Assembly (NCBI GenBank): GCA_012514775.1 | Contig: JAAYZQ010000250.1 | Span: 1 to 28,740, forward strand | Direction: 5' to 3' | Source: Anaerolineaceae bacterium | GTDB lineage: Bacteria; Chloroflexota; Anaerolineae; JAAYZQ01 | Length of the DNA stretch: 28,740 nt | Shown here: positions 1,362 through 28,740 of the stretch, piece by piece | How the letters are laid out: the number at the start of each line of letters is the position of its first letter | Position numbering within the stretch: position 1 is the first letter of the stretch | Made by a program: the position numbers and the translations under genes | Notes under the pieces: generated by a model | What the model was told of the DNA's origin: nothing | Database searches by the model: none | The model's input: only the letters and a program-made list of their open reading frames with translations

Positions 1362-1376
1362 GTGAGACTCAAAGCC

Positions 1377-1410
1377 GGGTGGCGCGCCCGGCGCGCCGGG
1401 CGCGCCACCC
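1377..1410. repeat. 34-base perfect palindrome after the binding-protein gene
   Basis: The two 17-base halves (1377-1393 and 1394-1410) are exact reverse complements, starting GGGTGGCGCGCCC. It lies 15 bases after the binding-protein stop codon, between that gene and the ATPase genes. There is no T-run after it, so a classical intrinsic terminator is not supported. A hairpin that protects the 3' end of binding-protein mRNA, giving more binding protein than membrane parts, is typical of such operons and is the likeliest role (inference). Confidence 0.6.
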
Positions 1411-1440
1411 ATCCGCCGGAAAGCGGCGGGATCTGACGAT

Positions 1441-1553
1441 CCCGCCGGAGCGTGGGGAGCGGGATCTGGAGATCCCGCCGGAGCGGGGGAGCGGGATGTG
1501 GCGAACCCGCCGGAGCGAAGGGTGGAGCGTGGGGGGATTATCCCGCCGGAGCG
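1441..1553. repeat. Four direct copies of CCCGCCGGAGCG
   Basis: Exact 12-base copies begin at 1441, 1474, 1506 and 1542, spaced 33, 32 and 36 bases. The intervals are rich in GGGATCT/GATC-type words but are not identical. They fill most of the 254-base gap between the binding-protein gene and the first ATPase gene. No gene is supported here; a 76-codon open frame across it is built only from the repeats. Confidence 0.6.
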
Positions 1554-1615
1554 GGGGTGGATTGAGGTGGCCGCCGCAACGAGGGGGCCAGGGCGAGGAT
1601 CTGAGGTGAGAATGC

Positions 1616-3047: not shown

Positions 3048-3052
3048 GGGGA

Positions 3053-4105
3053 ATGATGGAACGAGCAGTGGTTCAGCGCACGTTTGCGGAGAGGGCGTCG
3101 ATCTGGCTGCGAGGCAGAACGGCGGCCGTGATCGTGATTGGCTTCTCGGTGCTCCTGGCGGTGCTCATCGCCGTCGAGTCGGGGGCTTCGCAGTTGGCCA
3201 ACGTGGTGGTCACGGGCGGCATGTGGGCGCTCCTGGCGGCCGGCCTGGCCCTCGTCTTTGGCGTGATGAACATTCCACACTTTGCCCACGGCGAGTCGTT
3301 CATGGTGGGCGCCTACGTGGGCTATTTCGTCTTCACGCCCATCAGCGCCTACCTGAAGGAGAACCCCAACGGCACGCTGCAGTTGCTGGCCCCGCTGGTG
3401 GGTGTTTTGGCGGCCATGGTGGTGGGCGCGGTTCTGGGCGCCTTCCTGGAGCGGCTGATCTTTGCGCCGCTGCGCAAGAGAACGCGGGCGGGCTGGGTGA
3501 TGAACACGTTCTTGCTGACGGTGGGCCTGTCGTTCGTCATGACCAACGGCACGACGCTGTTGCTGGGACCCAACTTTCGGGGGATTCCGCGCTACTACGA
3601 TTTCGAGCCCCTGGAGTTCCTGGGCATGCGCGTGGCCTTTGACCGTATCTTTGCCTTTATCATTGCCATCGCGGTCATTGCCCTTCTGACGTGGTTCATG
3701 CAAAAGACGCGTACAGGCCGGGCCATCCGTGCCGTTTCTCAGGACGAGACCGGCGCGCAGTTGGTGGGCATCAACCTCGGTTTTGTGCACACCCTGACCT
3801 TTTCGCTGGCGACGGCCATGGCAGCCATGGCCGGGGCGGCGCTGCTGTTCATGTTCCAGGCTTATCCCACGGTGGGGCTCAAGCCGCTGTATTTTGCCTG
3901 GTACGTGGTCATGCTCGTGGGCCTGGGCAACGTCTATGGCGCCATTTTTGGCGGGTTCATCGTGGCCCTGCTGCAGACGGCGACGCAGCAGTTCATCGGC
4001 ATCGCCTGGGAGGACGTCGTGCCCACGGCGGTCATGATCCTGATCCTTATCCTGATCCCCTCGGGAATCTTTGGCAGCGAAGTCAAGGGCATCCAGGAGC
4101 AATAG
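3053..4105 (+). CDS. livH: HAAT-type ABC transporter permease (LivH-like)
   Basis: Inner-membrane permease, 350 aa, longer than the roughly 290-310 aa of typical LivH because of an N-terminal extension and a longer loop near residue 100. Many hydrophobic segments are visible from residue 22 on. The family landmarks LAAGLALVFGVMNIPHFAHGE near residue 65 and AVSQDETGAQLVGIN near residue 225 are present; the latter is the conserved region that touches the ATPases. Start ATG 3053 follows the livF-like stop by five bases behind a GGGGGA site; ATG 3056 is an equal alternative. It forms the translocation pore with the next gene product. Confidence 0.92.
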   Translation: MMERAVVQRTFAERASIWLRGRTAAVIVIGFSVLLAVLIAVESGASQLANVVVTGGMWALLAAGLALVFGVMNIPHFAHGESFMVGAYVGYFVFTPISAYLKENPNGTLQLLAPLVGVLAAMVVGAVLGAFLERLIFAPLRKRTRAGWVMNTFLLTVGLSFVMTNGTTLLLGPNFRGIPRYYDFEPLEFLGMRVAFDRIFAFIIAIAVIALLTWFMQKTRTGRAIRAVSQDETGAQLVGINLGFVHTLTFSLATAMAAMAGAALLFMFQAYPTVGLKPLYFAWYVVMLVGLGNVYGAIFGGFIVALLQTATQQFIGIAWEDVVPTAVMILILILIPSGIFGSEVKGIQEQ

Positions 4106-4120
4106 CTAAGGAGAGTATGT

Positions 4121-5203
4121 ATGAATCTTCAAAATGGTGTCCTGGAGCACAGTGAAGCGGGCGGCATCCTACCCCGAATCAAGGGAGGGTTGGCGAGCAT
4201 CGGCTTTAGCCCGCTGGGCCTGGTCCTGATCGTGATCGTGGCGGTGCGGCCCTTTGTGCCACCCTTCAACCAGGAGCACATCCTGCGCTGGCTGATCATG
4301 GGTGCCTTCCTGGCGGCCCAGGCGGTGGCCTTTGACTTCACGGCCGGATACATCAACGTGGTGAACTTTGGGTTTGCCGCCATCCTGGGCGTGGGAGCCT
4401 ACACCTCGGCCATCCTGGCCAACACCTCACCGGTGCTGGCCGTGCAGCCGGGGATCTCGCCCTGGATCGGCATCTGGGTTGGTGCCCTGCTGGCCGGGAT
4501 CATCGGCCTGGGGCTGGGCATCCTGACCCTGCGGCTGCGGGGCATCTTTGCCGCCGTCATGGCCTGGTTCGTGGGCATTGCCCTCATGGGCCTGGTGCGG
4601 AACATGACGCCGCTGACGCGCGGCCCCCTGGGCATGGCCCCCCGCAGCCTGCTGGAGACCACCTCGAACCGGCCCTACTTTTACGTCATCCTGGCCATGT
4701 TGCTGGTGGTCTATATCACGCTCAAGCTGGTGACGCGCTCCAAGTACGGCCTGGCCTTCAAGGCCATTGGCCAGAACTTTGACGCGGCGCGTGCCTCGGG
4801 CATCAACCCGACGACGTACCGGGTGTTCAACTTTACCCTGTCGGCCTTTTTCGCCGGCTGGCTGGGCGGCTTTTACGCCCACTATCTCGGCTCGCTGACG
4901 CCGGCGACGGTGATGCACACCAGCAAGACGGTGGAGGTGCTGGCGCTGGCCTACATCGGCGGCAGGGGGAGCCTGTGGGGCGGCATGGCCGTGGCGTTTC
5001 CGTTCGTGTTCTTTATCGAGGCCTTGCGCTCGAACCTATCGGACCTGCCGGGCCTGCACCTGGTGATCTATGGCGTGCTGATGATCCTGGTCATGGTCTA
5101 CTACCCGGGCGGGCTTGCGGGCTTGTATGCCTGGGCCAAGGACAAGCTGAGCGGGGTGCTGAAACGCGGCGACAAGCCGGCGGTGCCACAGGTGGAGGGC
5201 TGA
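4121..5203 (+). CDS. livM: HAAT-type ABC transporter permease (LivM-like)
   Basis: Second inner-membrane permease, 360 aa, about the usual length for LivM. Landmarks are FDFTAGYINVVNFGFAAILG near residues 70-90 and KAIGQNFDAARASGIN near residues 215-230, the ATPase-contact segment. The start is ATG 4121 with AAGGAG at 4108-4113, seven bases away; ATG 4117 is out of frame and stops early. It closes the five-gene transporter set. The next gene, an amine oxidase-like enzyme, starts only 30 bases later, so uptake and catabolism are probably on one transcript. Confidence 0.92.
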   Translation: MNLQNGVLEHSEAGGILPRIKGGLASIGFSPLGLVLIVIVAVRPFVPPFNQEHILRWLIMGAFLAAQAVAFDFTAGYINVVNFGFAAILGVGAYTSAILANTSPVLAVQPGISPWIGIWVGALLAGIIGLGLGILTLRLRGIFAAVMAWFVGIALMGLVRNMTPLTRGPLGMAPRSLLETTSNRPYFYVILAMLLVVYITLKLVTRSKYGLAFKAIGQNFDAARASGINPTTYRVFNFTLSAFFAGWLGGFYAHYLGSLTPATVMHTSKTVEVLALAYIGGRGSLWGGMAVAFPFVFFIEALRSNLSDLPGLHLVIYGVLMILVMVYYPGGLAGLYAWAKDKLSGVLKRGDKPAVPQVEG

Positions 5204-6457: not shown

Positions 6458-7876
6458 TTGCTCAACGATCAGGAGATTCAACAGATCCACCAGACCAGCA
6501 TGAAGCTGCTGGAGAACGTAGGTGTCGAGTTTCCGCACCCCGAGGCGCTGGAGGTCCTTGGCAGCCATGGCGTGCGGGTGGACGGCTCTCGGGCGTATTG
6601 GACGGAAAGGCAGTTGCTCGCGGCCCTGCAGTCCGTGCCGAAGCAGTTCACCATCCAGGCGCGCAACCCGGAGCGGAACGTGACGATTGGCGGTGGCGAG
6701 CCGGTGTTTGCTCCCTGCTACGGCGCGCCCTTCCTGGTCGACGCCGCGCCCGGGAGCGACGGCCTGCGCTGGGTGGGCAAACGCGCCCCGACCATGGACG
6801 ACTATGTGACGCTCGTCAAGCTGGTCCAGGCGCTGCCCAACCAGGACATGAGCGGCCACCTCCTCGTGGAGCCCGACTCGTCGCCGGTGCGGATGCTCCA
6901 CGCCCACATGGTCCATTCGGACAAGGCCTTTATCGGCAGCACGGCGGGGAAAAAGGGCGCCGAGCACACGCTGCGGATGGCCCGCATCCTCTTTGGCGAC
7001 GACGTCGGCACGGGCGCCGCCGAGGACAAGTACGTGACCATCAGCCTCATCAACAGCCTCAGCCCCCTGGGCTACAGCACCGAGATGCTGGACGCGCTGC
7101 TGACCTTTGCCGGGGCACGCCAGCCGCTGATGATCGCGGCGCTGATGATGGCCGGCTCGACGGGCCCCATCACCCTGGCCGGCGTCCTGGCCGCCCAGAC
7201 GGCCGAGCTGCTGGCGGGCATCGCCCTGACGCAGCTCGTCAGCCCCGGCACGCCGGTGGTCTTTGGCTCGACGTCGACAAATATTGACATGAAGTCGGGG
7301 GCCCTGGCCATCGGCAGCCCCGAGCTGTCGCAGATGATCGCCGCCCACGCCGACCTGGCGCGCTTTTACAAGCTGCCCTCGCGCAGTGGCGGCGCCCTGA
7401 CTGACGCCAGCTTCCCCGACGCCCAGGCGGGCTTTGAGTCGATGATGAGCCTGCTGACGACGGTCAACAGCGGCGTCGACTTTATCCTGCACGCGGGGGG
7501 GATCCTGACCTCGTACCTGGCGACGTCCATCGAAAAGCTCGTGCTGGACGACGAGATGTGCGGCATGGTCCGTCGCTTCCGGCAGGGCATCGTCGTCGAC
7601 CCCGACACCCTGGCCTACGACGTGGTCGCCAAGGTGGGGCCGGGCGGCAATTTCCTGACCGAGCCCCAGACCGTGAAGCGCTGCCGCAAAGAGTTCTGGA
7701 AGCCGGACCTGTGCGACCGTGCCGGGCTGGAGGCCTGGACCCAGGGCGGGCAGCGCGATGCCGAGGAGCGGGCCAGAACGCGCTGGCAGAAGCTGGTTGC
7801 CGAGCACGTCGATCCGCCCCTGGACGCGACGACGGCCCGGCAGCTCCAGGAGTACGTGGAGGCCGCGACCCGCTGA
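6458..7876 (+). CDS. MttB-superfamily corrinoid methyltransferase, paralog 1 (divergent C-terminus)
   Basis: 472 aa, the length of the trimethylamine/quaternary-amine methyltransferase family (COG5598). N-terminal MKLLENVGVEFPHPEALEVL and the central NSGVDFILHAGG region fit the family. Members without pyrrolysine transfer a methyl group from a quaternary amine to a corrinoid protein; no in-frame TAG interrupts this gene. It is the most divergent of the five copies: the C-terminal motif is VGPGGNFLTEPQT, where the other four have GHY and HT, so two shared His are lost. The start is TTG 6458, set by AAAGGAG at 6444-6450; the ATG at 6453 is out of frame. It follows the FAD enzyme by 12 bases, so the two probably act on one pathway. 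Confidence 0.88.
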   Translation: MLNDQEIQQIHQTSMKLLENVGVEFPHPEALEVLGSHGVRVDGSRAYWTERQLLAALQSVPKQFTIQARNPERNVTIGGGEPVFAPCYGAPFLVDAAPGSDGLRWVGKRAPTMDDYVTLVKLVQALPNQDMSGHLLVEPDSSPVRMLHAHMVHSDKAFIGSTAGKKGAEHTLRMARILFGDDVGTGAAEDKYVTISLINSLSPLGYSTEMLDALLTFAGARQPLMIAALMMAGSTGPITLAGVLAAQTAELLAGIALTQLVSPGTPVVFGSTSTNIDMKSGALAIGSPELSQMIAAHADLARFYKLPSRSGGALTDASFPDAQAGFESMMSLLTTVNSGVDFILHAGGILTSYLATSIEKLVLDDEMCGMVRRFRQGIVVDPDTLAYDVVAKVGPGGNFLTEPQTVKRCRKEFWKPDLCDRAGLEAWTQGGQRDAEERARTRWQKLVAEHVDPPLDATTARQLQEYVEAATR

Positions 7877-9454: not shown

Positions 9455-10912
9455 ATGAGGACAAACTATCCAGTCAATTCCGGCGTACGCTTCCAGATGC
9501 TCTCCGACGAGCAACTCGAGGAGCTGTTCGAGGGCGTGCTCCACGTGCTCGAATACACTGGTCTGGACGTGTACCACGACGAAGCACGAGACGTCCTGAA
9601 AAAGGCGGGCGCCTGGGTGGAAGGGCTGCGCGTGCGGCTGCCTTCCTACATGGTCAAGGACGCCCTGGCCAAGGCCCCGCGGTCGTTCACGCTGTGGGCC
9701 CGCGACGGCAACCCGAAGCACGACATCCACATCGGGCCCGGCCGGGCGCACTTTGGCCCTGGCCCCACGTGCCCCAACTTTATCGACATCGAGACCATGG
9801 AGCGCCGGCCGTACGTCAAGACCGACGTGCCGCCGGTGGCCACCATCGTCGACGCCCTGCCGAACATCGACTTTTGCGAGTCGTTGGGCACCGTGGGCGA
9901 CGTCCACCACGAGCTGGGCGCCCTGTACGAGTTCGCGGGCATGTTCCCCAACACCAGCAAGCCCATCGTCGCCTGGTCGTACGATCGCTTTGACTCGGCC
10001 GGCATCCACGAGATCGCCGTGGCCGAGGCGGGCGGGCAGGCGGCCTTTGAGAGGCGGCCCAACTATGTCCACTACTGCGAGCCGCTCTCGCCGCTGGTGA
10101 GCACCTTCGAGGCGCTGGACAAGCTCATCTTTGCGGCACGGCACCGCATTCCCCTGGTGTTCACGCCCTGCCCCATTGCCGGCGGTACCGCCCCGGTGAC
10201 CCCGGCGGGCATCATCACGCAGGCGGCGGCCGAGTCGTGGATGGGCCTCACGCTGGCGCAGGCGCTGCAGCCGGGCCTGCCCTTTATCATGGGCGGGGTA
10301 CTGTCGGTCATGGACATGAGCAGCATGATCCTGGCCTACGGCGCGCCCGAGCTGCCGCTGATGATGGCCGGCCTCACCGAGCTGGCGCACTTTGCCGGGC
10401 TGCCGCTGTGGCAGACGGGCGGCTGCACCGACTCGAAGTGCTTTGACGAGCAGGCCATCATCGAGGGCTCCATGGCGGTCTTTTTCTCGGCGCTGAGTGG
10501 CGGCGACCTGTGCCACGACGTGGGCTACACCGAGAGCGCCATGACGGGGTCGGTCTTCCAGCTCGTGGCCATGGACGAGGCCATCGGCTACTCGCGGCGG
10601 ATCACGCGCGGTATCGAGGTCACGCCCGAGACGCTGGCGGTGGACGTCATCAAGACGGTGGGACCCAACGGCCACTACCTGCGGCAGCAGCACACCCGCA
10701 AGTTCTACAAGACCGAGTTCTGGTATCCCAACCTCTGCGACCGCCGCAACTTTGAGGAATGGGAGATGATGGGCAAGACGACGTTCAAGGACCGCACGGT
10801 GGCCCGCGTCCAAGACATCCTGGCCACCCACAAGCCGTCGCCCATCAAGCCAGAGACGGAAAAAGTCATCGAGAAGGTCCTTGCCGAAGCCGAAGAACGG
10901 GTCAAGAATTAG
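9455..10912 (+). CDS. MttB-superfamily corrinoid methyltransferase, paralog 2
   Basis: 485 aa. Family features: N-terminal NYPVNSGVRFQMLSDEQLEE, HVLEYTGLDVYHDEARDVL, ALPNIDFCESLG near residue 140, a conserved ACPIAGG-like segment (CPIAGGTAPVTPAG) near residue 240, GGCTDSKCFDEQA near residue 325, and C-terminal VGPNGHYLRQQHT then FWYPNLCDR. The frame is continuous with no internal TAG, so it belongs to the non-pyrrolysine group that uses quaternary amines. It lies between corrinoid proteins 1 and 2 and could use either. Start ATG 9455 with GAAGGAGA nearby. Cytoplasmic. The substrate cannot be assigned from sequence alone. Confidence 0.92.
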   Translation: MRTNYPVNSGVRFQMLSDEQLEELFEGVLHVLEYTGLDVYHDEARDVLKKAGAWVEGLRVRLPSYMVKDALAKAPRSFTLWARDGNPKHDIHIGPGRAHFGPGPTCPNFIDIETMERRPYVKTDVPPVATIVDALPNIDFCESLGTVGDVHHELGALYEFAGMFPNTSKPIVAWSYDRFDSAGIHEIAVAEAGGQAAFERRPNYVHYCEPLSPLVSTFEALDKLIFAARHRIPLVFTPCPIAGGTAPVTPAGIITQAAAESWMGLTLAQALQPGLPFIMGGVLSVMDMSSMILAYGAPELPLMMAGLTELAHFAGLPLWQTGGCTDSKCFDEQAIIEGSMAVFFSALSGGDLCHDVGYTESAMTGSVFQLVAMDEAIGYSRRITRGIEVTPETLAVDVIKTVGPNGHYLRQQHTRKFYKTEFWYPNLCDRRNFEEWEMMGKTTFKDRTVARVQDILATHKPSPIKPETEKVIEKVLAEAEERVKN

Positions 10913-11575: not shown

Positions 11576-12316
11576 ATGATGAACGGCTCCGGATCATCGC
11601 CTTTCACTTCGTTCAAGACCGTGGGGGAACGACCCGTCGTGGTCGTGTCCTGCCAGGTGTTGCAGGACATGCTCGTTCGCCTGCTGCCCGACGGCATGGC
11701 GCAGCAAGTCACCTTCATGGACTACGGGCTGCACAGGGTGCCGGGCAAGATGACGCCCGCGCTCCAGGAGATCCTGGATGGGATCGAGGAGCCGAGCGTG
11801 GTCATGCTCGGCTACGGGCTGTGCGGCAACGGTCTGAAGGGCCTGCGGGCGGGGAAGCACATCCTCCTCGTGCCGCGGGTGGACGACTGCATCGCGCTGC
11901 TTCTGGGCTCGCACCGGGACTATATCCGGGAGTTCGAGGCGGTGCCGGGCACGTACTACCTGAGCAAGGGGTGGCTGGAATCTGGAAGCCATCCGCTGAA
12001 AGAGTACCAGGAGTACGAGCCCAAGTACGGCGCGGAGCAGGCGGCCTGGATCATGGACCAGCAGTACCGGCACTACGAGCGGCTGGTGCTGGTGGCCCAG
12101 AACCAGGAGGACCTGGACGCCTATCGTGAGCAGGCCCTGGAAGTCGCCCGTTTTTGTGAGCGATGGGGCATGCGCTTCGAAGAGCGCCTGGGCTCCGACG
12201 ACTACGTGCGGCGTTTTGTGGCTACGGCCTCCAACCTGGACGCGGCCGATGCGAGCGCTGACTTTCTGGTCATTCCGCCCGGAGGAGAGATCCGGCAAGA
12301 GCAGTTCATGCGGTGA
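11576..12316 (+). CDS. DUF1638-family protein
   Basis: 246 aa, recognised from the family pattern: SCQVLQ near residue 25, LGYGLCGNGLKG at 78-89, PRVDDCIALLLGS at 100-112, and GTYYLSKGW near 125. The function of DUF1638 is not established. Three Cys (26, 83, 105), each inside a conserved block, could bind a metal or cluster (inference). From memory, homologs occur near MttB and corrinoid genes in other anaerobes, and here it lies between corrinoid protein 2 and MttB 3, pointing to an accessory role in corrinoid-dependent methyl transfer, such as cofactor insertion, activation or quality control. The start is ATG 11576 or 11579; no good ribosome site is visible. Confidence 0.82.
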   Translation: MMNGSGSSPFTSFKTVGERPVVVVSCQVLQDMLVRLLPDGMAQQVTFMDYGLHRVPGKMTPALQEILDGIEEPSVVMLGYGLCGNGLKGLRAGKHILLVPRVDDCIALLLGSHRDYIREFEAVPGTYYLSKGWLESGSHPLKEYQEYEPKYGAEQAAWIMDQQYRHYERLVLVAQNQEDLDAYREQALEVARFCERWGMRFEERLGSDDYVRRFVATASNLDAADASADFLVIPPGGEIRQEQFMR

Positions 12317-12342
12317 TCGCCAATCTAATAGGAGAAGGAACC

Positions 12343-13845
12343 ATGCAAGTACGAAAAACGAATTATACTGTGAACGCCACGCCGACATTCCAGGTTCTCA
12401 CCGAAGACGAGATCGAGGCCATCTACTACTCGGCCCTTTCCGTGCTCTACGAGACGGGCGTTCGGGTTTACGAACCGGAAGGCGTGCGAGTTGCATACGA
12501 GGGCGGGGCCATCGTCGAGGACACGCAGGCGGACAACAGCCTGGTCAAGATTCCGCCCTGGTTGGTGGACAAGGCGCTGGCGACGCTGCCGCGCAAGGTG
12601 GTGGTCATCGGCCCCGACCGCAAGCACAAGATGGAGCTGTACAAGGACTCGCTCTACTTCGGGTCCGGCTCCGACACGCCCTATACCATCGACCCCTACA
12701 CGGGCGAGCGCCGGCGCGCCCTGTACAAGGACGTGAAGAACTTTGCCAAGCTGGCCCAGGCGCTGCCGAACATCGACTTTCACATGTCGCTGGGCATCGT
12801 CCAGGACACGCAGGTGGGCACCTACGACCGGTGGCAGTACCTGGCGATGCTGGAAGGGACCAACAAGCCCATCAACATCACGGCGGTGGACATTGACGGG
12901 CTGCGCGACCAGCTGGAGATGGCCTACATCCGGGTGGGCGGCAAGGAAGAATGGCGGAAGGGACCGATCTTTTCGCTGTACATCGAGCCGGTGTCGCCCC
13001 TGAGCCACAGCGAGGAGGTGGTGCAGAAGCTGCTGTTCGCCTCGGAGCACGAGATCCCGTTCGTCTACACGCCCTGCCCGCTGGCGGGCGCGACGTCGCC
13101 CTGCACGCTGGCCGGGACGGCGGTCCAGGCGCTGACGGAGAGCCTGTTTGGCATCGTGTTGAGCCAGACGGTCAAGCCGGGGGCGCCGCTGATCATCGGC
13201 GGCCTGATGTCCAACATGGACATGCAGACGACGGTCTACTGCTACGGCTCGCCGGAGATGGCGCTGCTGAGCGCGGCCTACACCGACATCACCAAGTGGC
13301 TGGGCGTGCCCGAGTACGAGACAGCGGGCTGCTCCGACGCCAAGATGTTTGACGAGCAGGCGGCGATGGAGGCGACGATCAACATCGCCACGGCGGGCCT
13401 CATCGGCGGAAACATGATCCACGACGTGGGTTACCTGGAGCAGGGCCTGACCAGCTCGGCAGAGATGATGGTCGCCTCGGACGAGATCATCGACCGGGTG
13501 AAGCGCATCCTGCGCGGCATCCCGGTGGACGACGCCACCAAGGCCCTGGACGTCATGGACACGGTCGGCCCGGGTGGCCATTACCTGGAGCACGACCACA
13601 CCTACACGCGCTTCAAGACCGAGATCTGGCGGCCCAAGCTGACGGACCGCCTCAACTGGGAGAACTGGACGGCCGCCGGCAGCAAGAGCTACCGCGACCG
13701 CGTCCACGAGCGCGTCGTCGAGCTGCTCGAGGCCGAGACCGAGCCCCTGATGGACGAAAAGATGTTCCAGGAGATCAAGCGCGTCTGCGAGTCGGCCGAC
13801 ACTCGCCACAAGGACGAAGAGCTGGACTTCCAGTTGTTTGTCTAA
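12343..13845 (+). CDS. MttB-superfamily corrinoid methyltransferase, paralog 3
   Basis: 500 aa from ATG 12343, chosen because GGAGAAGGA (12331-12339) precedes it; an in-frame GTG at 12313 lies inside the previous gene's end and lacks a site. Motifs: YFGSGSDTPYTIDPYTGE near residue 105, ALPNIDFHMSLGI near 145, CPLAGATSPCTLAGT near 240, AGCSDAKMFDEQAAMEA near 330, and C-terminal VGPGGHYLEHDHT then IWRPKLTDR. It is closest in appearance to MttB 5. No internal stop. It very likely demethylates a quaternary amine in partnership with corrinoid protein 2 or 1. Two strong hairpins follow the gene. Confidence 0.92.
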   Translation: MQVRKTNYTVNATPTFQVLTEDEIEAIYYSALSVLYETGVRVYEPEGVRVAYEGGAIVEDTQADNSLVKIPPWLVDKALATLPRKVVVIGPDRKHKMELYKDSLYFGSGSDTPYTIDPYTGERRRALYKDVKNFAKLAQALPNIDFHMSLGIVQDTQVGTYDRWQYLAMLEGTNKPINITAVDIDGLRDQLEMAYIRVGGKEEWRKGPIFSLYIEPVSPLSHSEEVVQKLLFASEHEIPFVYTPCPLAGATSPCTLAGTAVQALTESLFGIVLSQTVKPGAPLIIGGLMSNMDMQTTVYCYGSPEMALLSAAYTDITKWLGVPEYETAGCSDAKMFDEQAAMEATINIATAGLIGGNMIHDVGYLEQGLTSSAEMMVASDEIIDRVKRILRGIPVDDATKALDVMDTVGPGGHYLEHDHTYTRFKTEIWRPKLTDRLNWENWTAAGSKSYRDRVHERVVELLEAETEPLMDEKMFQEIKRVCESADTRHKDEELDFQLFV

Positions 13846-17832: not shown

Positions 17833-18810
17833 GTGAGCGAAAACCGTTTGCTGTACCTGTCGTATTCCGACGTCCAGGGCCTGGGGGTGAGGATGGCGGA
17901 GGTCATCGAGGCGCTGGAGATCGCGTTTCGGGAAAAGGGGAAGGGCAAGGTGGAGATGCCGCCGAAGCCGGGGGTGCACCCGACGAACCCGGACAACTTT
18001 ATCCACGCGATGCCGGCGTATATCCCGGCGCTGGGGTCGGCGGGGGTAAAGTGGGTGGCGGGCTACCCGGAGAACTACAAGCGGGGGCTGCCGTACATCA
18101 CGGGGCTGTTGATCCTGAACGACGTGGAGACGGGGCTGCCGCTGGCGGTGATGGACTGTGTGTGGATCACGGCGATGCGCACGGGGGCGGCGACGGCGGT
18201 GAGCGCGCGCTACCTGGCGCGGCCGGAGTCGTCGACGGCGGGCATCCTGGGCTGCGGGGTGCAGGGGCGGACGAACCTGGAGGCGCTGAACGTGCTGTTT
18301 CCGCTAAAGAAGGTGCGGGCCTATGACGTGCGGCCGGAGATGGCGGAGCGCTACGCGCGGGAGATGAGCGAGGAGCTGGGCCTGGAGGTGAGGGCGGTGC
18401 GGGAGCCGCGGGAGGCGGTGGCGGGCAGCGACCTGGTGGTGACGGCGGGCCCGATCCTGAAGGTGCCGCACGCGACGATCAAGGCGGGCTGGCTGGAGGA
18501 AGGGGCGTTTGCGTCGGCGGTGGACTATGATACGTATTGGGACCGGGCGGCGCTGAAAGAAGCGAGCAAGTTCTGCACGGACGACGTGGCGCAGCTGCTC
18601 TATTACCAGGGGGCGGGCTACTTCCAGGACATCCCGCCGATCTACGCAGACCTGGGCGAGCTGGCGACGGGCCAGAAGGCGGGCCGCGAGACGCCGGAAG
18701 AGCGGACGATCACGGCCAACCTGGGCCTGGCGCTGGACGACATGGCGGTGGCGCCGCTGGTGTACAGGAAGGCGGTGGAAAAGGGCGCCGGCACGTGGCT
18801 GCGGCTGTGA
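17833..18810 (+). CDS. Ornithine cyclodeaminase/alanine dehydrogenase-family protein (mu-crystallin-like)
   Basis: 325 aa, usual length. The NAD(P)-binding motif AGILGCGVQGRTNLEAL lies near residues 136-152, after the family segment MRTGAATAVSARYLARPES. The upstream GVKWVAGYPENYKRGLPYI and downstream VVTAGPILK segments are also typical. Family members deaminate ornithine to proline, reduce cyclic imines or oxidise amino acids; the substrate cannot be fixed here. The gene ends 17 bases before MttB 4, so a proline-betaine or other cyclic amino acid betaine route is an attractive but untested idea. The start is GTG 17833, seven bases after GGAGG; GTG 17830 is too close. Codons favour GCG/GGG/ACG more than the genes to the left. 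Confidence 0.87.
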   Translation: MSENRLLYLSYSDVQGLGVRMAEVIEALEIAFREKGKGKVEMPPKPGVHPTNPDNFIHAMPAYIPALGSAGVKWVAGYPENYKRGLPYITGLLILNDVETGLPLAVMDCVWITAMRTGAATAVSARYLARPESSTAGILGCGVQGRTNLEALNVLFPLKKVRAYDVRPEMAERYAREMSEELGLEVRAVREPREAVAGSDLVVTAGPILKVPHATIKAGWLEEGAFASAVDYDTYWDRAALKEASKFCTDDVAQLLYYQGAGYFQDIPPIYADLGELATGQKAGRETPEERTITANLGLALDDMAVAPLVYRKAVEKGAGTWLRL

Positions 18811-18827
18811 GCGAGGAGCACAGAGAC

Positions 18828-20273
18828 ATGATCCCGAATCTGTTCAACAGCAGGAGGAACGGGCTGGCGTTTACGCCCAAGATGGCGGTGGTTAACGAGG
18901 AGCAGTTGGAGCAGCTTCACATGGCGACGCTGGAGCTGCTGGAGCGCACGGGGGTGCAGATCACCCACCCGCGGGCGCTGGAGATCCTGCACGGGGGCGG
19001 GGCGCGCGTGGATGGCAGCCGAGTGCGGATGCCCTCTTGGCTGGTGGAAGACGCCATCGGCAAGGCACCGGCGCGGGTGGTGCTGGGCAAGAGGAACGGG
19101 GAGCGGGCGGTGGCGCTGGAGGGGGACCGGGTGTGGTTCGGCCCGAGCGTGGACTGTATCGATTACCTGGACCCGGCGACGGGGGAGCGCTCGCGGTTTA
19201 CGAGCGAGCATTGCCGGATCACGACGACGGTGGCGGACGCGCTGCCGAATTACACGTGGGTGATGACGATCGGCATGGCGGACGACGTGGCGCCGGACAT
19301 CGCGGACCGGGTGATTGCGAAGCAGGTGTTGACGTACACGGAAAAGCCGCTGGTGTTTTGCTGCAAGGACGTGAACAGCGTGCGGGACATCTATGCGATG
19401 GCGGTGGCCATCGCGGGGAGCGAGGAGGGCTTTCGGCAGGCGCCGACGGTGGTGCACTACTCGGAGCCGATCTCGCCGCTGCTGTACTACGATCCGGCGG
19501 TGGAAAAGATCCTGTTCTGCGCGGAGAAGGGGATCCCGCTGATCAACTATCCGGCGCCGCAGGGGGGGAGCACGGCGCCGGCGACGTTTGCGGGGGAGAT
19601 CGTCCAGGGCAGCGCGGAGTCGTTGAGCGGGCTGGTGCTGGCGCAGCTGGTGCGGCCGGGGGCGCCGTTCATCTACGGGGCGTTCACGACGATCATGGAC
19701 ATGAGGACGACGATCTTTTCGTACGGGGCGCCGGAGATGAGCCTGATGGTGGCGGCGATGGCGCAGCTGGCGCAGCGCTACCGGCTGCCGTTCTTTGGGA
19801 CGGCGGGCTGCTCGGACAGCAAGGTGCCGGACGCGCAGGCGGCGGCGGAGGCGGCGTTTTCGTGCCTGGCCTCGGCACTGAGCGGGGCGAACCTGGTGCA
19901 CGACCCGGGCTGGCTGGACCACGGCTCGGTGGCGTCGCCGGGGTATATCGTCCTGGTGCACGAGGTGCTGCACATGGTCAACCAGTTGATGGGCGGGGTG
20001 CCCATCAGCGACGAGACGCTGGCGCTGGACGTCATGGATCGCGTGGGCCCGGGCGGGCACTACCTGCAGGAAGACCACACGCTAAAGCACTTTCGCGACG
20101 TGTGGTATTCGAAGTTGTTCGACCGGTCGATTTATGCCCGGTCGGGGGACGGAGTGCCGGGCTTTGACGACCGGCTGCGGGAGCAAACACTCAAGATCAT
20201 GGAGCACGAGCCCGCTCCGCTGCCGCCGGAAGTGGCCCGGGAGCTCGAGGAGATGGCGGGGCATTGGACCTAA
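18828..20273 (+). CDS. MttB-superfamily corrinoid methyltransferase, paralog 4
   Basis: 481 aa from ATG 18828 with GAGGAG at 18813-18818. Motifs: LELLERTGVQITHPRALEIL, WFGPSVDCIDYLDPATGE, DALPNYTWVMTIGM, YPAPQGGSTAPATFAGE, TAGCSDSKVPDAQAAAEAAF, and C-terminal VGPGGHYLQEDHT then WYSKLFDR. It has no internal TAG. It lacks the N-terminal NYxVN lead seen in paralogs 2, 3 and 5, and the IDFHxSLG motif is changed to YTWVMTIGM, so its substrate may differ. No corrinoid gene is directly beside it; it must share a carrier from elsewhere. It is downstream of the ornithine-cyclodeaminase-like gene. Confidence 0.92.
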   Translation: MIPNLFNSRRNGLAFTPKMAVVNEEQLEQLHMATLELLERTGVQITHPRALEILHGGGARVDGSRVRMPSWLVEDAIGKAPARVVLGKRNGERAVALEGDRVWFGPSVDCIDYLDPATGERSRFTSEHCRITTTVADALPNYTWVMTIGMADDVAPDIADRVIAKQVLTYTEKPLVFCCKDVNSVRDIYAMAVAIAGSEEGFRQAPTVVHYSEPISPLLYYDPAVEKILFCAEKGIPLINYPAPQGGSTAPATFAGEIVQGSAESLSGLVLAQLVRPGAPFIYGAFTTIMDMRTTIFSYGAPEMSLMVAAMAQLAQRYRLPFFGTAGCSDSKVPDAQAAAEAAFSCLASALSGANLVHDPGWLDHGSVASPGYIVLVHEVLHMVNQLMGGVPISDETLALDVMDRVGPGGHYLQEDHTLKHFRDVWYSKLFDRSIYARSGDGVPGFDDRLREQTLKIMEHEPAPLPPEVARELEEMAGHWT

Positions 20274-20326: not shown

Positions 20327-20440
20327 GGGGGCCTCAAGGGGGTCCGGGTTGCGTGCCGGGCCGGAGTCCCCCCTGGCCCGGACGGCCACCCTGGCACCGC
20401 CCGCCACACTTGCGCCTGCGCGCAGTGCAGGTGGGACCGG

Positions 20441-20658
20441 CGACTTGTCGGGGGAAGCTTGCGGGGGAGACGGTCTGGCCCCGACAAGTCGGGGAGTCCG
20501 GGTTGCAGCCAGAGCCGGAGTCGCCGACTTGTCGGGGGAAGCTTGCAGGGAGACGGCCTGGCCCCGACAAGTCGGGGAGTCTGGGTTGCAGCCAGAGCCG
20601 GAGTCGCCGACTTGTCGGGGGAGGCTTGCAGGGGAGACGGCCTGGCCCCGACAAGTCG
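20441..20658. repeat. 84-base tandem repeat with internal 13-base inverted repeat
   Basis: Units start at 20441 (84 bases), 20525 (83 bases) and 20608 (first 51 bases kept). Every unit contains CGACTTGTCGGGG and, about 25 bases on, its exact reverse complement CCCCGACAAGTCG, giving a 13-bp stem (first unit: 20441-20453 with 20479-20491). The 33-base stretch between stems is also conserved, so this is a tandem repeat and not a CRISPR array. Confidence 0.85.
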
Positions 20659-20708
20659 CCCGTCCTGGCCGGACAGGCCAGGGGGGAGTCTGGATTCGGA
20701 TTGCGTGT

Positions 20709-20759
20709 GAAGGGAGCTTGCTCTCCCTTCAGGGAAAGACTCCCCTCCCCTCGCAGGGG
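20709..20759. repeat. Two hairpins upstream of the RACE-like gene
   Basis: GAAGGGAG (20709-20716) pairs with CTCCCTTC (20723-20730); CCCCT (20747-20751) pairs with AGGGG (20755-20759). The second type resembles 7928-7942. Their role is unknown. Confidence 0.4.
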
Positions 20760-20822
20760 AGGACCCAGCGGGCCGGATCGGGCGGGGGGAGAGGTTGGTC
20801 GGTCGGTCGAGAGGAGATGCGG

Positions 20823-22553
20823 ATGAAGGTAACGGTTGTCTACGGCAGCGATGAGCGGTCGGTGGAGGTGCCCCGGGACGCGAACCTGGGGGAGGCCATC
20901 ATTGCCACGGGCCTGCCCCTGGAGCAGCCCTGCGCGGGGCGGGGCACGTGCCTGAAGTGCAAGGTCATTGCCCAGCCGACGGTGGCGGGGACGGCCGGAG
21001 TCCTGAGCCCGCTGGATGAGAGGGAGCTGGTGGGGCTGAGCGACGCGGAGCGGGCGGCCGACTACCGGCTGGCCTGCCGCGCCCGGGTCCAGGGCGACGT
21101 GACGGTCACGCTGGCGCCCATCGTGGTCTATTCGAACAAGATGTTTCGGGCCTGCGACGACTACAAGAAGCCGGGCGTCCCCCTGGGCCTGGCCATTGAC
21201 CTGGGCAGCACCACGGTGGCGGCCTTTGTGACCACGTTGACTACGGGGGACGTCTGCGCCGGGGCGGCGGCCCTGAACCAGCAGACGGCCTTTGGCGCCG
21301 ACGTCATCTCGCGCATGGCGGCCGCGCTGCGGGGCCCGGACACGGCCCGGCGGCTGTCGATGCTGGCCATGTCGTCCATCGTGCAGGCGGTGGACGCGCT
21401 CAAGCTGTCGCGCAGCGCCCGGGAGCGCGTCGAGAAGGTGACCATCGTGGGCAACTGTGCGATGCACCACCTGCTGCTGGGCTACCCCGTGGAGAGCCTG
21501 GCCGAGCTGCCGTTCCAGCCCCACGACCGGGCCTCGGTCAATGCCCCTCGCTCTGCTCAGGATGATAATGCCAATTCGGCCTTTGGCGACACGTTCCCCC
21601 CCGGCGCCCGGGTGGCGCTGCCGCCGTTGGTGGGCGGGTTCGTCGGCTCGGACGCGCTGGCCTGCCTGGCGTATTATGGCTTTGACCGGGCGACGGGGCC
21701 CATGGCGGCCATCGACCTGGGCACCAACGGCGAGGTCATGGTCACCGACGGCCTGCCGCCCCGGGGCACGGGCCGCATCCTGGTGGCCTCCACGGCCGCC
21801 GGACCCGCCTTCGAGGGCGTGAACATCTCGTGTGGGACCCGCGCCGTGGACGGCGCCATCGTCAGCGTCAAGGCCAACCTCGACGACGGCAGCCTTGACC
21901 TGGTGACCATCGGCGACCAACCGCCGGTGGGGCTCACCGGCTCGGGCCTTCTGGAGCTGATGCGCGAGCTGCGCCGGGCGGGGGTGGTGGAGCCCAGCGG
22001 CCGGCTGGTGAAGGAGCATCCGGTCTTTGGCCATCGCCTGAGCGTGGACGAGCGGGGCGTGCGCCGGCTGCTCATCACCGACCAGGCGGTGGACCGCCGC
22101 GGTGTGGAAGAGGGCGAGGAAGGGCGGCGCGTGTCGCTGTACCTCACCCAGCACGACATCCGCGAGCTGCAAAAGGCCAAGGGCGCCATCCGCGCCGCGA
22201 CCGAGATCCTGATGGCCCAGGCGGGCCTCAAGCCGGCGGACCTGGAGCGGATGGTGCTGACGGGCTCGTTTGGCAGCCAGTTGAACGTCGACGCCGTGTT
22301 GTCGCTGGGCATGATCCCGCCGGTGGACCCGGCGTGCGTGGAGCCCTCGGCCAACGGTGCGGGGTTTGGGGCGGCGCTCTTCCTGGACGACGAGGAGTTT
22401 GCCCGGGGGGAGCGCATCGCGGCGGCCGCGCAGCAGGTGGACCTGGACCTGGACGCGGAGTTTAACAGGCGGTACGTGGAATCGATGGAGTTTCCCGCAT
22501 CCTTCGCTTCGCCCAAGACCATGGAGGAAGAACAGGACTCGCAGCCCGAATGA
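20823..22553 (+). CDS. RACE-like reductive activator of corrinoid proteins (2Fe-2S + ASKHA)
   Basis: 576 aa from ATG 20823, six bases after GAGGAG; ATG 20817 abuts the site. An N-terminal [2Fe-2S] ferredoxin domain has Cys37, Cys43, Cys46 and Cys85 (C-x5-C-x2-C...C). The ASKHA part has AIDLGSTTVAAF around residue 126, GNCAMHHLLLG, AIDLGTNGEV, ASTAAGPAFEGVNISCG and a C-terminal TGSFGSQLN. This is the architecture of RACE/COG3894 proteins, which use ATP to reduce cob(II)alamin in corrinoid proteins back to the active cob(I) form. It is the only such protein in view and probably serves all three corrinoid carriers. An interspersed repeat (21543-21565) sits in frame in a loop near residues 241-250. 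Confidence 0.93.
   Translation: MKVTVVYGSDERSVEVPRDANLGEAIIATGLPLEQPCAGRGTCLKCKVIAQPTVAGTAGVLSPLDERELVGLSDAERAADYRLACRARVQGDVTVTLAPIVVYSNKMFRACDDYKKPGVPLGLAIDLGSTTVAAFVTTLTTGDVCAGAAALNQQTAFGADVISRMAAALRGPDTARRLSMLAMSSIVQAVDALKLSRSARERVEKVTIVGNCAMHHLLLGYPVESLAELPFQPHDRASVNAPRSAQDDNANSAFGDTFPPGARVALPPLVGGFVGSDALACLAYYGFDRATGPMAAIDLGTNGEVMVTDGLPPRGTGRILVASTAAGPAFEGVNISCGTRAVDGAIVSVKANLDDGSLDLVTIGDQPPVGLTGSGLLELMRELRRAGVVEPSGRLVKEHPVFGHRLSVDERGVRRLLITDQAVDRRGVEEGEEGRRVSLYLTQHDIRELQKAKGAIRAATEILMAQAGLKPADLERMVLTGSFGSQLNVDAVLSLGMIPPVDPACVEPSANGAGFGAALFLDDEEFARGERIAAAAQQVDLDLDAEFNRRYVESMEFPASFASPKTMEEEQDSQPE
21543..21572. repeat. Interspersed short repeat, copy C (in frame in the RACE-like gene)
   Basis: GCCCCTCGCTCTGCTCAGGA followed by TGATAATGCC; it matches copies A and B. 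It is read as APRSAQDDNA, between two conserved parts of the ASKHA domain (LPFQPHDRAS and FPPGARVALPPLVGGFVG). Confidence 0.55.
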
Positions 22554-24025: not shown

Positions 24026-24056
24026 GGGGGGCAGTTACAACCTGGCACTGGCGGGT

Positions 24057-24085
24057 TTGGCAAATCGCTCGAGTGCGGGTATAAT
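24057..24085 (+). promoter_or_regulatory. Sigma-70-type promoter of the corrinoid 3 operon
   Basis: TTGGCA (24057-24062) and TATAAT (24080-24085) with a 17-base spacer: one mismatch to the -35 consensus and a perfect -10. Transcription would begin near 24092, giving a leader of about 92 bases before the ATG at 24184. Confidence 0.75.
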
Positions 24086-24091
24086 ACCTGC

Positions 24092-24155
24092 GCGCCGCAC
24101 CTGTCCTGGTACTGACCCTACAGCCAGCACGGGCGTCCGGTATCAGGGGCGGCGC
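24092..24155 (+). promoter_or_regulatory. Structured 5' leader ahead of corrinoid gene 3
   Basis: Starting at the predicted transcript start, GCGCCGC (24092-24098) pairs exactly with GCGGCGC (24149-24155). Inside, CCTGGTAC (24105-24112) pairs with GTATCAGG (24140-24147) with one G-U pair, and GACCC can pair with GGGCGTC with one bulge. The remaining 28 bases hold GAGGAGG and the start codon. It matches no riboswitch consensus that I know (cobalamin, SAM and SAH considered). Confidence 0.45.
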
Positions 24156-24183
24156 AGGCCACAAGGGGCGAGGAGGATCCGCA

Positions 24184-24837
24184 ATGCCAGACGATAGACT
24201 ATACGAGCAGATGGCCCAGGCCGTGATCGACGGGCTGCCCGATAAGGCCAGGCAACTGGCCGAGCAGGCCCTCAGCCAGGGGATCGACCCCCTGGAGGCC
24301 ATCAACCGCGGCTACAAGCCCGGCATGGACGTCGTTGGCGAAGGTTTCGCCAACGGCGATTTGTTTATCCCCGATCTGATGATGAGCGGCGAGGCCATGA
24401 AAGCGGCCATCGCCGCCCTTGAGGGCGAGCTCTCCCGGCGCAAGCAGCAGCGCGACGTCCTGGGCAAGGTCGTCATCGGCACCGTCGAGGGCGATATCCA
24501 CGAGATCGGCAAGACCTTGGTGGCGACCATGCTGGCCGCCAACGGCTTCGAGGTTTATGACCTCGGCGTCGACGTCTCGGCACGGGCGTTCGTCGATAAG
24601 GTGCGCGAGGTGGATGCCGACGTCCTGGGTCTCTCGGCCCTGCTGACCACCACCATCCTCAATCAGGAAACGGTCATCCTCACCCTGAAGGAAGCCGGGC
24701 TGCGCGACCGGGTCAAGGTCATCATTGGCGGCGTGCCGGCCAGCGAGGAGTGGGCCCAGGAGATCGGCGCCGATGGCTATGCCGAGAACGCCACCGAGGC
24801 CGTCGCCACCGTCAAGCAGCTTGTCGGGCGGGGTTAG
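24184..24837 (+). CDS. Corrinoid-binding methyl carrier protein, paralog 3
   Basis: 217 aa. The helical cap LYEQMAQAVIDGLPDKARQL and the cobalamin domain with D104-I-H106-E-I-G109 (GDIHEIGKTLV) are clear; His106 would bind cobalt. SALLTTTI and GGVPAS are the later cobalamin loops. It is more divergent from paralogs 1 and 2 than they are from each other and carries a short basic insertion (SRRKQQRD) between the domains. It is the first gene of its own promoter-driven unit and lies four bases before a homocysteine S-methyltransferase gene, so its methyl group probably goes to homocysteine (inference). Confidence 0.95.
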   Translation: MPDDRLYEQMAQAVIDGLPDKARQLAEQALSQGIDPLEAINRGYKPGMDVVGEGFANGDLFIPDLMMSGEAMKAAIAALEGELSRRKQQRDVLGKVVIGTVEGDIHEIGKTLVATMLAANGFEVYDLGVDVSARAFVDKVREVDADVLGLSALLTTTILNQETVILTLKEAGLRDRVKVIIGGVPASEEWAQEIGADGYAENATEAVATVKQLVGRG

Positions 24838-24841
24838 GGCC

Positions 24842-25720
24842 ATGCGCACACCCATCCTGGAAAAGCTGGCCTCTGGTGCGGTGCTCATCGCCGACGGCGC
24901 CACGGGCACCATGCTCCAAATGGCGGGCCTGCCCACGGGCCGGCCGGGCGAGGCCTGGGTCCTGGAACGACCGGAAGAGATCCTGGCGCTGCACCAGGCC
25001 TACCTGGACGCAGGCTCGCAGCTCATTTTGACCGCGACCTTTGGCGGCACGCGCGTGCGCCTGCAGCGGGCCGGGCTGGAGGGCAGCGTCGCTGAGGTCA
25101 ACCGCCGGGCGGCCGAGCTGGCCCGCCAGGCGGCAGGCGACGACGTCTACGTGGGCGGCGACATCGGCCCCACGGGCGAGATGATGGCGCCCCTGGGAAG
25201 CCTGTCCTACGAGCAGGCCGTCGAGGCCTTTGCCGAGCAGGCGGAAGCGCTGGCGGCCGGCGGCGTGGACTGCATCTACGTGGAGACGATGAGCGCCCTG
25301 GACGAGGGCCGCGCCGCGGTAGAGGGCGCCCGCCAGGCCACCGACCTGCCCATCTTTTGCACGTTTAGCTTTGACACGCGCGGCCGCACCAGCATGGGCG
25401 TTACGCCTGCCCGGGCGGCCGAGGCCGTGGCGGGCCTGGGGGCGGCCGCCGTGGGCGCCAACTGCGGCCACGCGCCCGAAGACGTCCTCGAGATCCTGCC
25501 CCAGATACGCCAGGCGGCGCCCGGCGTGTTTCTCATCGCCAAGCCCAACGCCGGCATCCCGCGCCTGGTCAAGCGCCAGGTTGTCTATGACGCCGGCCCC
25601 GACCGCATGGCCGAGCTGGCGCGGCAGTACGTCGCCCTGGGCGCCTCGGTGGTCGGTGCCTGCTGTGGCTCCTCTCCGGAGCACATCGCGGCCATGCGCC
25701 AGGCCCTCGCCGCGGGCTGA
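24842..25720 (+). CDS. Homocysteine S-methyltransferase-family protein (BHMT / MetH N-terminal domain type)
   Basis: 292 aa single-domain TIM barrel. N-terminal IADGATGTMLQMAGLP and the zinc ligands Cys208 (GANCG) and Cys274-Cys275 (GACCGS) are all present, as needed to bind homocysteine thiolate. Its size is that of one homocysteine module, as in BHMT or the first domain of cobalamin-dependent methionine synthase; no folate-binding or cobalamin domain is fused. The gene starts four bases after corrinoid gene 3 and is followed by MttB 5. It probably takes a methyl group from methyl-corrinoid protein 3 to make methionine. Alternatives are direct use of a betaine or S-methylmethionine. Start ATG 24842; the stop is TGA 25718-25720. 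Confidence 0.93.
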   Translation: MRTPILEKLASGAVLIADGATGTMLQMAGLPTGRPGEAWVLERPEEILALHQAYLDAGSQLILTATFGGTRVRLQRAGLEGSVAEVNRRAAELARQAAGDDVYVGGDIGPTGEMMAPLGSLSYEQAVEAFAEQAEALAAGGVDCIYVETMSALDEGRAAVEGARQATDLPIFCTFSFDTRGRTSMGVTPARAAEAVAGLGAAAVGANCGHAPEDVLEILPQIRQAAPGVFLIAKPNAGIPRLVKRQVVYDAGPDRMAELARQYVALGASVVGACCGSSPEHIAAMRQALAAG

Positions 25721-25788
25721 CGGCCGGCGCGGCGTGGCCGCTCGAAAAACCAAGCTGTCCACCTGGACCCGGGCAAGAGGAGGTCCCT

Positions 25789-27264
25789 ATGAAGGCGAAC
25801 TACCAGGCAAACGTCACCCCCCAGTTTCGCGTGCTGTCGGACGAGCAGATCGAAGAGATCGTCTCCGCCGCCATGGACGTGCTGGAGCGAGTTGGCACCC
25901 GGGCCTACGGCGATGAGACGCTGGAGCGGCTGCGCGGCGCGGGCTGTCTCCTCGGTGAGGAGCGCCCGGGCGAGGCGCAGGTGCGCATCCCGGCGTGGGT
26001 GGTGGAGAACGCCCTGCGCACCGCGGCGAGCCGCATCGTCGTCGCCGGCCGCGACCGGAGCCGGCGCATTGTCCTGGAAAAGAACCGCTTCTATTTCGGC
26101 ACCGGCTCCGACTGCCCGTCCCTGGTCGACCCCCACAGCGGCGAGGTGCGCAAATACACCTTTGACGACGTGTACGACGCGGCGCGCATCGCCGATGCGC
26201 TGCCCAACATCGATTTTCACATGTCCCTGGGCCTGACCTCGGGCGTGCTGGCCCGGACCTACGACCGGCCCCAGTTCCTGGCCATGGTCAAGGGCACGGC
26301 CAAGCCCCTGGTGGTGACCGCCGTGGACCGGGAGGGCCTGGCCGACCAGTACCGCATGGCCTGCGAGGTGCTGGGCGGCGCGGACGAGTTTGCCCGGGCC
26401 CCCCTGTTCGTGGTCTATATCGAGCCCAGCTCGCCCCTCAGCCACTCGGTGGAGGCAACGTCCAAGGTCCTGTACGCCGCGGCCAATGGCATCCCGGCGA
26501 TCTATACCCCGTGCATCATGGCCGGCGGCACGGGTCCCGCGACCCTGGCCGGGACGATGGTCCAGGCCCTGGCCGAATACCTGGTGGGCCTGGTGCTGGC
26601 GCAGTGCACGCGGCCCGGGGCCGGTGTGATCATGGGCGGTGTGAACTCGATCATGGACATGGCGACCTCCATCCTGTCCTACGGCGCCCCCGAGCTGTCC
26701 CTCATCAGCGCCGCCATGACCGACGTGGCCAAGTGGCTGGGCGTGCCCATGTTCTCCACCGCCGGCTGTTCCGACGCCAAGGTGCTGGATCAGCAGGCGG
26801 CCATCGAGGCGACCATGTCCGTCGTCATCGCCGCTCTGTCGGGAGCCAACCTCATCCACGACGTGGGCTACCTCGAGTCGGGGCTCCTGGGCTCCTTTGA
26901 CATGCTGGTCATGAGCGACGAGGTCATTGGCATGGCCAGGCGAATCCTGTCGGGCGTGAGTGTTACGCCCGAGACGCTGGCGGTGGAGGTCGTCGAGCGG
27001 GTGGGCCCCGGCGGGCACTATATGGCCCAGCCCCACACGCGCCAGCACTTTCGGGCCGAGACCTGGTTTCCGAAGCTGGTCGACCGCCAGATGCGAGGCG
27101 CGTGGCAGGCGGCCGGCAGCCACACCCTGGGCGACCGGGTGCGGGCCCGGGTCCTCGACATCCTGGAGCACCACCAGCCGCCGCCCCTGCCCGGGGGCGT
27201 CGAGGAAAGCCTGCGGGCCATCGTCGCCGGGGCCGAGGCGCGCCACGCCGAGGCCGGGCGATGA
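25789..27264 (+). CDS. MttB-superfamily corrinoid methyltransferase, paralog 5
   Basis: 491 aa from ATG 25789 behind GAGGAGG. Motifs: NYQANVTPQFRVLSDEQIEE, YFGTGSDCPSLVDPHSGE, ALPNIDFHMSLGL, CIMAGGTGPATLAGTM, TAGCSDAKVLDQQAAIEA, and C-terminal VGPGGHYMAQPHT then WFPKLVDR. It is closest to paralog 3 in these motifs. The frame is free of internal TAG. In this unit it would supply methyl groups from a quaternary amine to corrinoid protein 3, whose gene is two genes upstream, for transfer to homocysteine. The MazG-like gene overlaps its stop by four bases. Confidence 0.93.
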   Translation: MKANYQANVTPQFRVLSDEQIEEIVSAAMDVLERVGTRAYGDETLERLRGAGCLLGEERPGEAQVRIPAWVVENALRTAASRIVVAGRDRSRRIVLEKNRFYFGTGSDCPSLVDPHSGEVRKYTFDDVYDAARIADALPNIDFHMSLGLTSGVLARTYDRPQFLAMVKGTAKPLVVTAVDREGLADQYRMACEVLGGADEFARAPLFVVYIEPSSPLSHSVEATSKVLYAAANGIPAIYTPCIMAGGTGPATLAGTMVQALAEYLVGLVLAQCTRPGAGVIMGGVNSIMDMATSILSYGAPELSLISAAMTDVAKWLGVPMFSTAGCSDAKVLDQQAAIEATMSVVIAALSGANLIHDVGYLESGLLGSFDMLVMSDEVIGMARRILSGVSVTPETLAVEVVERVGPGGHYMAQPHTRQHFRAETWFPKLVDRQMRGAWQAAGSHTLGDRVRARVLDILEHHQPPPLPGGVEESLRAIVAGAEARHAEAGR

Positions 27265-27575: not shown

Positions 27576-27608
27576 CGCCCCCGGCAGCGGCGCAGGCGGC
27601 GCGCTTCG

Positions 27609-28719: not shown

Positions 28720-28740
28720 GCCCCTCGCTATGACTCCTGG

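Follow-up and report, generated by a model that had tools for sequence, protein, structure and literature searches.

The gene unit described here, a triad encoding a corrinoid carrier (MtgC3), a stand-alone homocysteine S-methyltransferase (MtgE) and an MttB-superfamily methyltransferase (MttB5), lies in a 28,740-nucleotide stretch from an Anaerolineaceae bacterium (contig JAAYZQ010000250.1 of assembly GCA_012514775.1; hereafter the window) and can be set against several known systems. The Desulfitobacterium MtgABC system is reportedly a glycine betaine:tetrahydrofolate (H4F) methyltransferase, and Eubacterium is said to have the MtpB/MtcB/MtyB systems; like the triad, these combine an MttB-superfamily donor with a corrinoid carrier, but they have a folate enzyme as acceptor, whereas the window unit has a homocysteine enzyme. 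MetH contains homocysteine and cobalamin modules homologous to MtgE and MtgC3; in the triad, however, these modules lie in separate open reading frames (ORFs) with no fused folate or reactivation domain, and the score falls under the TIGR02082 cut-off.

A three-part methionine synthase with separate homocysteine, pterin and B12 subunits is known from Phaeobacter inhibens (Price et al., 2018, PMC5764234), and the accessible part of that paper reports that a carrier and a homocysteine subunit of the type found in activase-carrier-MtgE loci are needed for methionine, that a RamA-like gene goes with the split MetH, and that the DUF1638 family is required for this synthesis, with no role assigned to it. 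The window resembles this system in its separate carrier and homocysteine subunit and in its RamA-like activase and DUF1638 protein, but no pterin-binding subunit was seen in it (two of the three subunits being present) and an MttB gene adjoins the pair. The nearest precedent is MtgBCDE (Mausz et al., 2025, PMC12478193), described from Ruegeria pomeroyi and other bacteria, with homologs in Sinorhizobium meliloti and others; it brings methyltransferases of family PF06253 together with a corrinoid carrier and a stand-alone subunit for homocysteine. As far as its accessible text goes, that study proposes the carrier as the interconnection of betaine demethylation and methionine synthesis, with mtgE usually apart from mtgBCD and co-located in S. 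meliloti. The window likewise encodes a PF06253 donor, a corrinoid carrier and a stand-alone PF02574 homocysteine subunit, but here a single unit that has no MtgD unites the carrier, the homocysteine subunit and MttB, and the alphaproteobacterial carriers in the tree belong to a clade that does not include MtgC3. The string "chloroflex" has no occurrence in the main text of PMC12478193, and a literature search, with most subscription papers and bioRxiv preprints beyond its reach, returned nothing nearer than that paper.

The initial annotation of this DNA had placed the three genes of the triad where ORFs and family matches now recover them. MtgC3 scores 231 bits against TIGR02370 (cut-off 215; NCBIfam profile search) and its best relative among solved structures is MttC of the MttB-MttC complex (7xcn); its motif D104-I-H106-E-I-G109 (DxHxxG at 104-109) bears out the proposed cobalt-ligand position, His106 being the motif histidine. 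In MtgE, whose start was assigned by reading the sequence to the ATG at 24842, the three predicted zinc cysteines, C208, C274 and C275, align with C217, C299 and C300 of human BHMT; the closest of the matches listed are proteins at 100% (P0002) and 98% identity (P0003, Anaerolineae). MttB5 scores 417 bits against TIGR02369, under its cut-off of 525, and is about equally distant from MttB and two betaine-type structures (7xcl, 239 bits; 2qne, 225; 9yce, 224). It has a cysteine at the aligned pyrrolysine position, in a frame that is open with no in-frame TAG, and is thus a non-pyrrolysine member; family and gene surroundings suggest that its substrate is likely a quaternary amine. This cysteine stands within G-C-[ST]-D-[AS]-K in 7/7 triad MttB5 copies and in three other MttB proteins of the window (paralogues 2-4). 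The Rfam model PYLIS_3 (pyrrolysine insertion sequence mttB) matches positions 26767-26866, within the MttB5 coding sequence (38.7 bits, gathering score 38), and also L184 (9742-9841), probably through coding homology to mttB.

When genome contigs were scanned with MtgE and the best 80 of 185 relatives kept, the order carrier, MtgE, MttB5 appeared in four loci (L001-L004; two titled Anaerolineae and two Chloroflexi), and two more (L154, L184) were added by reading the neighborhoods found in an MtgE search of 60 relatives of G004, the genome of L004, 40/60 of which matched at 1e-60. The three-gene neighborhood, for which the initial annotation had suggested a search, thus occurs in the same order in six other genomes, all from related metagenome-assembled genomes (MAGs), with MtgE broken in frame in L184. 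This recurrence of carrier, MtgE and MttB exceeds chance. When other window genes were used as queries at these six loci, which include some short stretches, only a HyuA-like gene (L003) and a partial MttB1-like gene (L154) exceeded 45 bits. That the three genes are mere neighbors in an amine-rich region rather than one pathway is suggested by the many orders in which such loci reuse their modules and by the plentiful PF06253 matches (22 in G001); with an order constant across the window and six other genomes while nearly all other tested genes differ, and with gaps of 4-85 and 2-130 nucleotides within the triad (five loci measured), we regard this as highly improbable. The PF06253 matches per genome, fragments included, number 22, 12, 5, 14 and 13 in G001 to G005 (the genomes of L001-L005), and some of these frames contain an internal stop. 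In the MtgE tree, from which L184 was left out, the six triad copies form one clade (support 1.0) amid lone MtgE genes. Six viral stretches fitting a pattern contained no MtgE relative.

Elsewhere the same parts are combined differently. The order activase-carrier-MtgE is seen in L005, L172 (which has a folate arm too), L173, L176 and L182, with further arrangements in L007 (folate arm-activase-MtgE), L175 (carrier-activase-MtgE), L180 (carrier-MtgE) and L183 (activase-MtgE); these activase/carrier/MtgE loci resemble the split methionine synthase that Price et al. described. Many further MtgE genes are solitary. A folate arm, carrier and MttB adjoin one another in L114, L123, L231 and L233, which by analogy are like MtgBCD demethylases. 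Set beside these loci, the triad reads as an MttB-carrier pair whose acceptor position is taken by a homocysteine arm.

The descent of the carriers is compatible with this arrangement. An IQ-TREE analysis of 39 carriers (a cut ORF of L123 and the window ORF 20134-20826 being left out) yielded an 11-member clade with an ultrafast bootstrap (UFBoot) of 100, comprising the seven triad carriers and those of L235, L236, L239 and L168, of which the L235 and L236 carriers adjoin MttB genes. A second clade of nine, also with UFBoot 100, unites six carriers of activase-carrier-MtgE or carrier-MtgE loci with three alphaproteobacterial ones, which we infer to be MtgC proper from a tree that is without the named R. 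pomeroyi and P. inhibens proteins; in one alphaproteobacterial locus (L247), a weak match to DUF1638 and one to MetF come after the carrier. MtgC3 thus appears to group mainly with MttB-adjacent carriers, apart from the split-MetH type. The grouping of the triad carriers by themselves received 53 UFBoot in IQ-TREE and 0.998 and 1.0 in FastTree, whose trees included ORF 20134-20826, in one as the outgroup. We also considered that MtgC3 is simply the MtgC of split MetH; the trees disfavor this, with a triad node of only 53 UFBoot and the named MtgC outside the sample.

Neither full-length MetH nor MetE (PF01717), whose absence from the hosts had been proposed as a check, was detected in any of the six triad genomes, which are MAGs of completeness not established. 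Among the 60 relatives, MetH was present in 5/36 genomes with a stand-alone MtgE versus 13/24 without one (Fisher p 0.0014, a guide only, because the genomes are related and their completeness is not established). Both sets were fixed by hand: MetH as 14/60 over the family cut-off plus four with long hits lying just under it or cut by a contig end (G045, G054, G058, G059), and MtgE carriers as 36 of the 40 matched, omitting G036, G062, G065 and G070, where the only match lay in a frame of >600 aa. On these counts, the group seems to use stand-alone MtgE in place of MetH.

The best-supported reading, to which we assign a probability of roughly 0.6, is that the triad is a modular cobalamin-dependent methyltransferase of the split-methionine-synthase kind, passing methyl groups from an amine via the corrinoid to homocysteine; we infer the direct amine-to-methionine transfer, as well as each methyl-transfer step, its substrate, direction and choice of partner. 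Under this reading, a methylated and probably quaternary amine would give up a methyl group, which MttB5 would transfer to the cob(I)alamin of MtgC3, and methyl-MtgC3 would then dock on the zinc enzyme MtgE, where the methyl group would pass to homocysteine with release of methionine. The RamA-like activase, perhaps together with the DUF1638 protein, would return oxidized cobalt to Co(I). Where encoded, a stand-alone MtgD-type methyltransferase may act as a second methyl donor, and the best description of the unit is therefore a methionine synthase whose amine input is an addition or a substitute. In favor of this reading, a methionine-auxotrophic S. meliloti metH mutant is reported to be rescued by betaine via Bmt, the MtgE homolog (PMC12366255, accessible part).

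Several observations weigh against this reading, some of them bound up with its rivals. The triads yielded neither a SAM nor a cobalamin riboswitch; no riboswitch was accepted at gathering scores in the window or 19 related loci, the PYLIS_3 match being the only one in the window, and a malK-III match (16 bits, gathering score 50) was disregarded. The MttB5 copies next to MtgE were mostly found using MtgE, so that its never occurring without MtgE is only weakly tested; a search with MttB5 itself in 400 genomes of the phylum gave one triad genome, with a single ortholog (G004, 73%) and the next best at about 50% identity. Within the 11-member carrier clade, the L168 carrier, encoded on the opposite strand, neighbors a lone MtgE with no MttB detected, and no MttB was seen in the 6.2 kb of L239. 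The count of 0/6 for MetH comes from a small sample, and, since a second MtgE lies outside the triad in G001 and G004 (in G002 and G003 the triad copy is the only one), those two genomes need not rely on the triad for methionine. Further, five of the six triad genomes encode an MtgD-type stand-alone methyl-H4F:corrinoid methyltransferase. With the L003 protein as query these are G003 (the query itself), G077 (84%), G004 (78%), G001 (75%) and G002 (61%); G048, a 1.9-Mb MAG, has only a 34% protein within the range of AcsE-like ones. The L003 gene lies about 4 kb from the triad, and its product scores 276 bits against the NCBIfam model for methyl-H4F:corrinoid/iron-sulfur protein methyltransferase, above the cut-off of 259. 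Gene content therefore cannot carry a folate-free route.

These MtgD-type genes would be in keeping with a two-way hub of the kind envisaged by Mausz et al., in which a shared carrier would pass amine methyl groups to folate via a distant MtgD for catabolism, while methionine would be made from methyl-H4F by MtgD, MtgC3 and MtgE, with no direct feed of note from MttB. The accessible part of their paper speaks for it: in the drawn model methyl-H4F, rather than the amine directly, charges the carrier for methionine via MtgD, and R. pomeroyi mtgD mutants are methionine auxotrophs that do not grow on betaine (PMC12478193). We nonetheless consider the hub unlikely for the triad, as MtgD clustered with MttB goes with other carriers of other clades (L114, L123, L231, L233), no pterin-binding gene was seen in the 28.7 kb of the window, and, once charged by MttB5, a carrier next to MtgE would need to be prevented from reaching it. 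Direct transfer from the amine to homocysteine through MtgC3 remains our preferred reading.

A different rival would make MtgE a corrinoid-free betaine (or dimethylsulfoniopropionate [DMSP] or S-methylmethionine):homocysteine methyltransferase, with MttB5-MtgC3 a separate demethylase. MtgE shares with BHMT and P. inhibens Bmt the PF02574 zinc barrel and a possible betaine-to-methionine link, and its closest NCBIfam model is by name a betaine--homocysteine S-methyltransferase (NF005718, 314 bits, below the 338 cut-off). In human BHMT, however, the betaine-pocket residues are Trp44, Tyr77 and Tyr160, and in MtgE the two tyrosines are replaced by Gly (Y77) and Thr (Y160), as in MetH-type sequences, whereas the alignment of W44 is ambiguous because a conserved tryptophan, W39, sits four residues on. 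MtgE is also nearer to MetH than to BHMT in sequence and predicted fold, and it sits with a corrinoid carrier and MttB. P. inhibens Bmt is reported to need no partner in vitro to form methionine from DMSP and betaine (PMC12366255, accessible part), but homologs of the MtgE type have been argued, in the accessible text of PMC12478193, to be without the betaine residues. We therefore judge a corrinoid-free MtgE improbable.

Taken against the initial annotation, amine-to-corrinoid-to-homocysteine transfer thus keeps its split-methionine-synthase-like unit beside MttB, its conserved triad, its MetH-type homocysteine domain and its six hosts in which neither MetH nor MetE was detected, but two parts give way: the claim of a new route, preceded by MtgBCDE and, before that, by split MetH, and that of methionine made without folate, given the MtgD-type proteins. 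The proposed mechanism is plausible and stands on firmer ground than it did at first.

The surroundings of the triad in the window are collected in Table 1. Upstream is a locus of the amine type, which comprises, by Pfam, a branched-chain-type ABC transporter, a DAO oxidoreductase, four further MttB proteins, two corrinoid carriers, the DUF1638 protein and a RamA/RACo-type activase; the last, which scores 234 bits against the AcsV model, under that model's cut-off, is a probable partner for cobalt reactivation. The true start of paralogue 4 is probably later than the ORF start, its Pfam match beginning at residue 112. ORF 20134-20826 (230 aa), between paralogue 4 and the activase, was rejected as a corrinoid protein, having no Pfam match, and may not be a real gene. 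DUF1638 recurs near corrinoid methyltransferase genes in L011, L190 and L231, in the orders activase-DUF1638-MtgE (L011) and carrier-DUF1638-MttB (L231).

Table 1. Coordinates of the triad and of associated features in the window
Feature	Positions	Strand	Basis
Branched-chain-type ABC transporter genes (binding protein, two ATPases, two permeases)	48..5203	+	Pfam
MttB-superfamily paralogue 1	6458..7876	+	PF06253
MttB-superfamily paralogue 2	9455..10912	+	PF06253
DUF1638 protein	11576..12316	+	PF07796
MttB-superfamily paralogue 3	12313..13845	+	PF06253
MttB-superfamily paralogue 4	18537..20273	+	PF06253
RamA/RACo-type corrinoid reductive activase	20349..22553	+	PF14574 + PF17651
Promoter-like site TTGGCA-17-TATAAT upstream of triad	24057..24085	+	consensus scan, 11/12 matches
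MtgC3, corrinoid carrier protein, 217 aa	24184..24837	+	TIGR02370; PF02607 + PF02310
MtgE, stand-alone homocysteine S-methyltransferase, 292 aa	24842..25720	+	PF02574, 239 bits
MttB5, MttB-superfamily (non-pyrrolysine) methyltransferase, 491 aa	25789..27264	+	PF06253, 331 bits
104-aa ORF, overlapping the MttB5 stop codon	27261..27575		no Pfam match

The triad had been described as a self-contained unit with its own promoter. The promoter-like site is present but is a consensus match only: among the four related loci scanned (255-291 nucleotides upstream of each), L001 has a site with 9/12 matches, and L002-L004 have none in the scanned stretch. A consensus scan of 23000-28740 found two sites versus 0.4 expected in shuffles. 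"Self-contained" is slightly overstated, as the 104-aa ORF begins within the MttB5 stop; no counterpart of this ORF was seen in the other triad loci. A perfect TTGACA-17-TATAAT site (12/12 matches, with TG before the second hexamer) at 27609-27637 lies ahead of a DUF2231 + Rieske gene (27789-28667).

What is new here is the wiring, in which an MttB-type carrier and a homocysteine arm form a compact, conserved unit in Chloroflexota; the parts themselves are already in print. A stronger version, which we advance only tentatively and hold to be possible rather than probable, is that this Anaerolineae lineage without MetH or MetE obtains methionine chiefly from an environmental quaternary amine via MttB5, MtgC3 and MtgE without passing through folate, a split methionine synthase having had its homocysteine subunit rewired onto an MttB-type carrier. 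If true, methyl assimilation in these bacteria would be partly uncoupled from folate, genome tools that seek MetH or MetE would miscall such bacteria as methionine auxotrophs, and the acceptor arm of corrinoid methyltransferases, whether folate or homocysteine, would be an exchangeable part.

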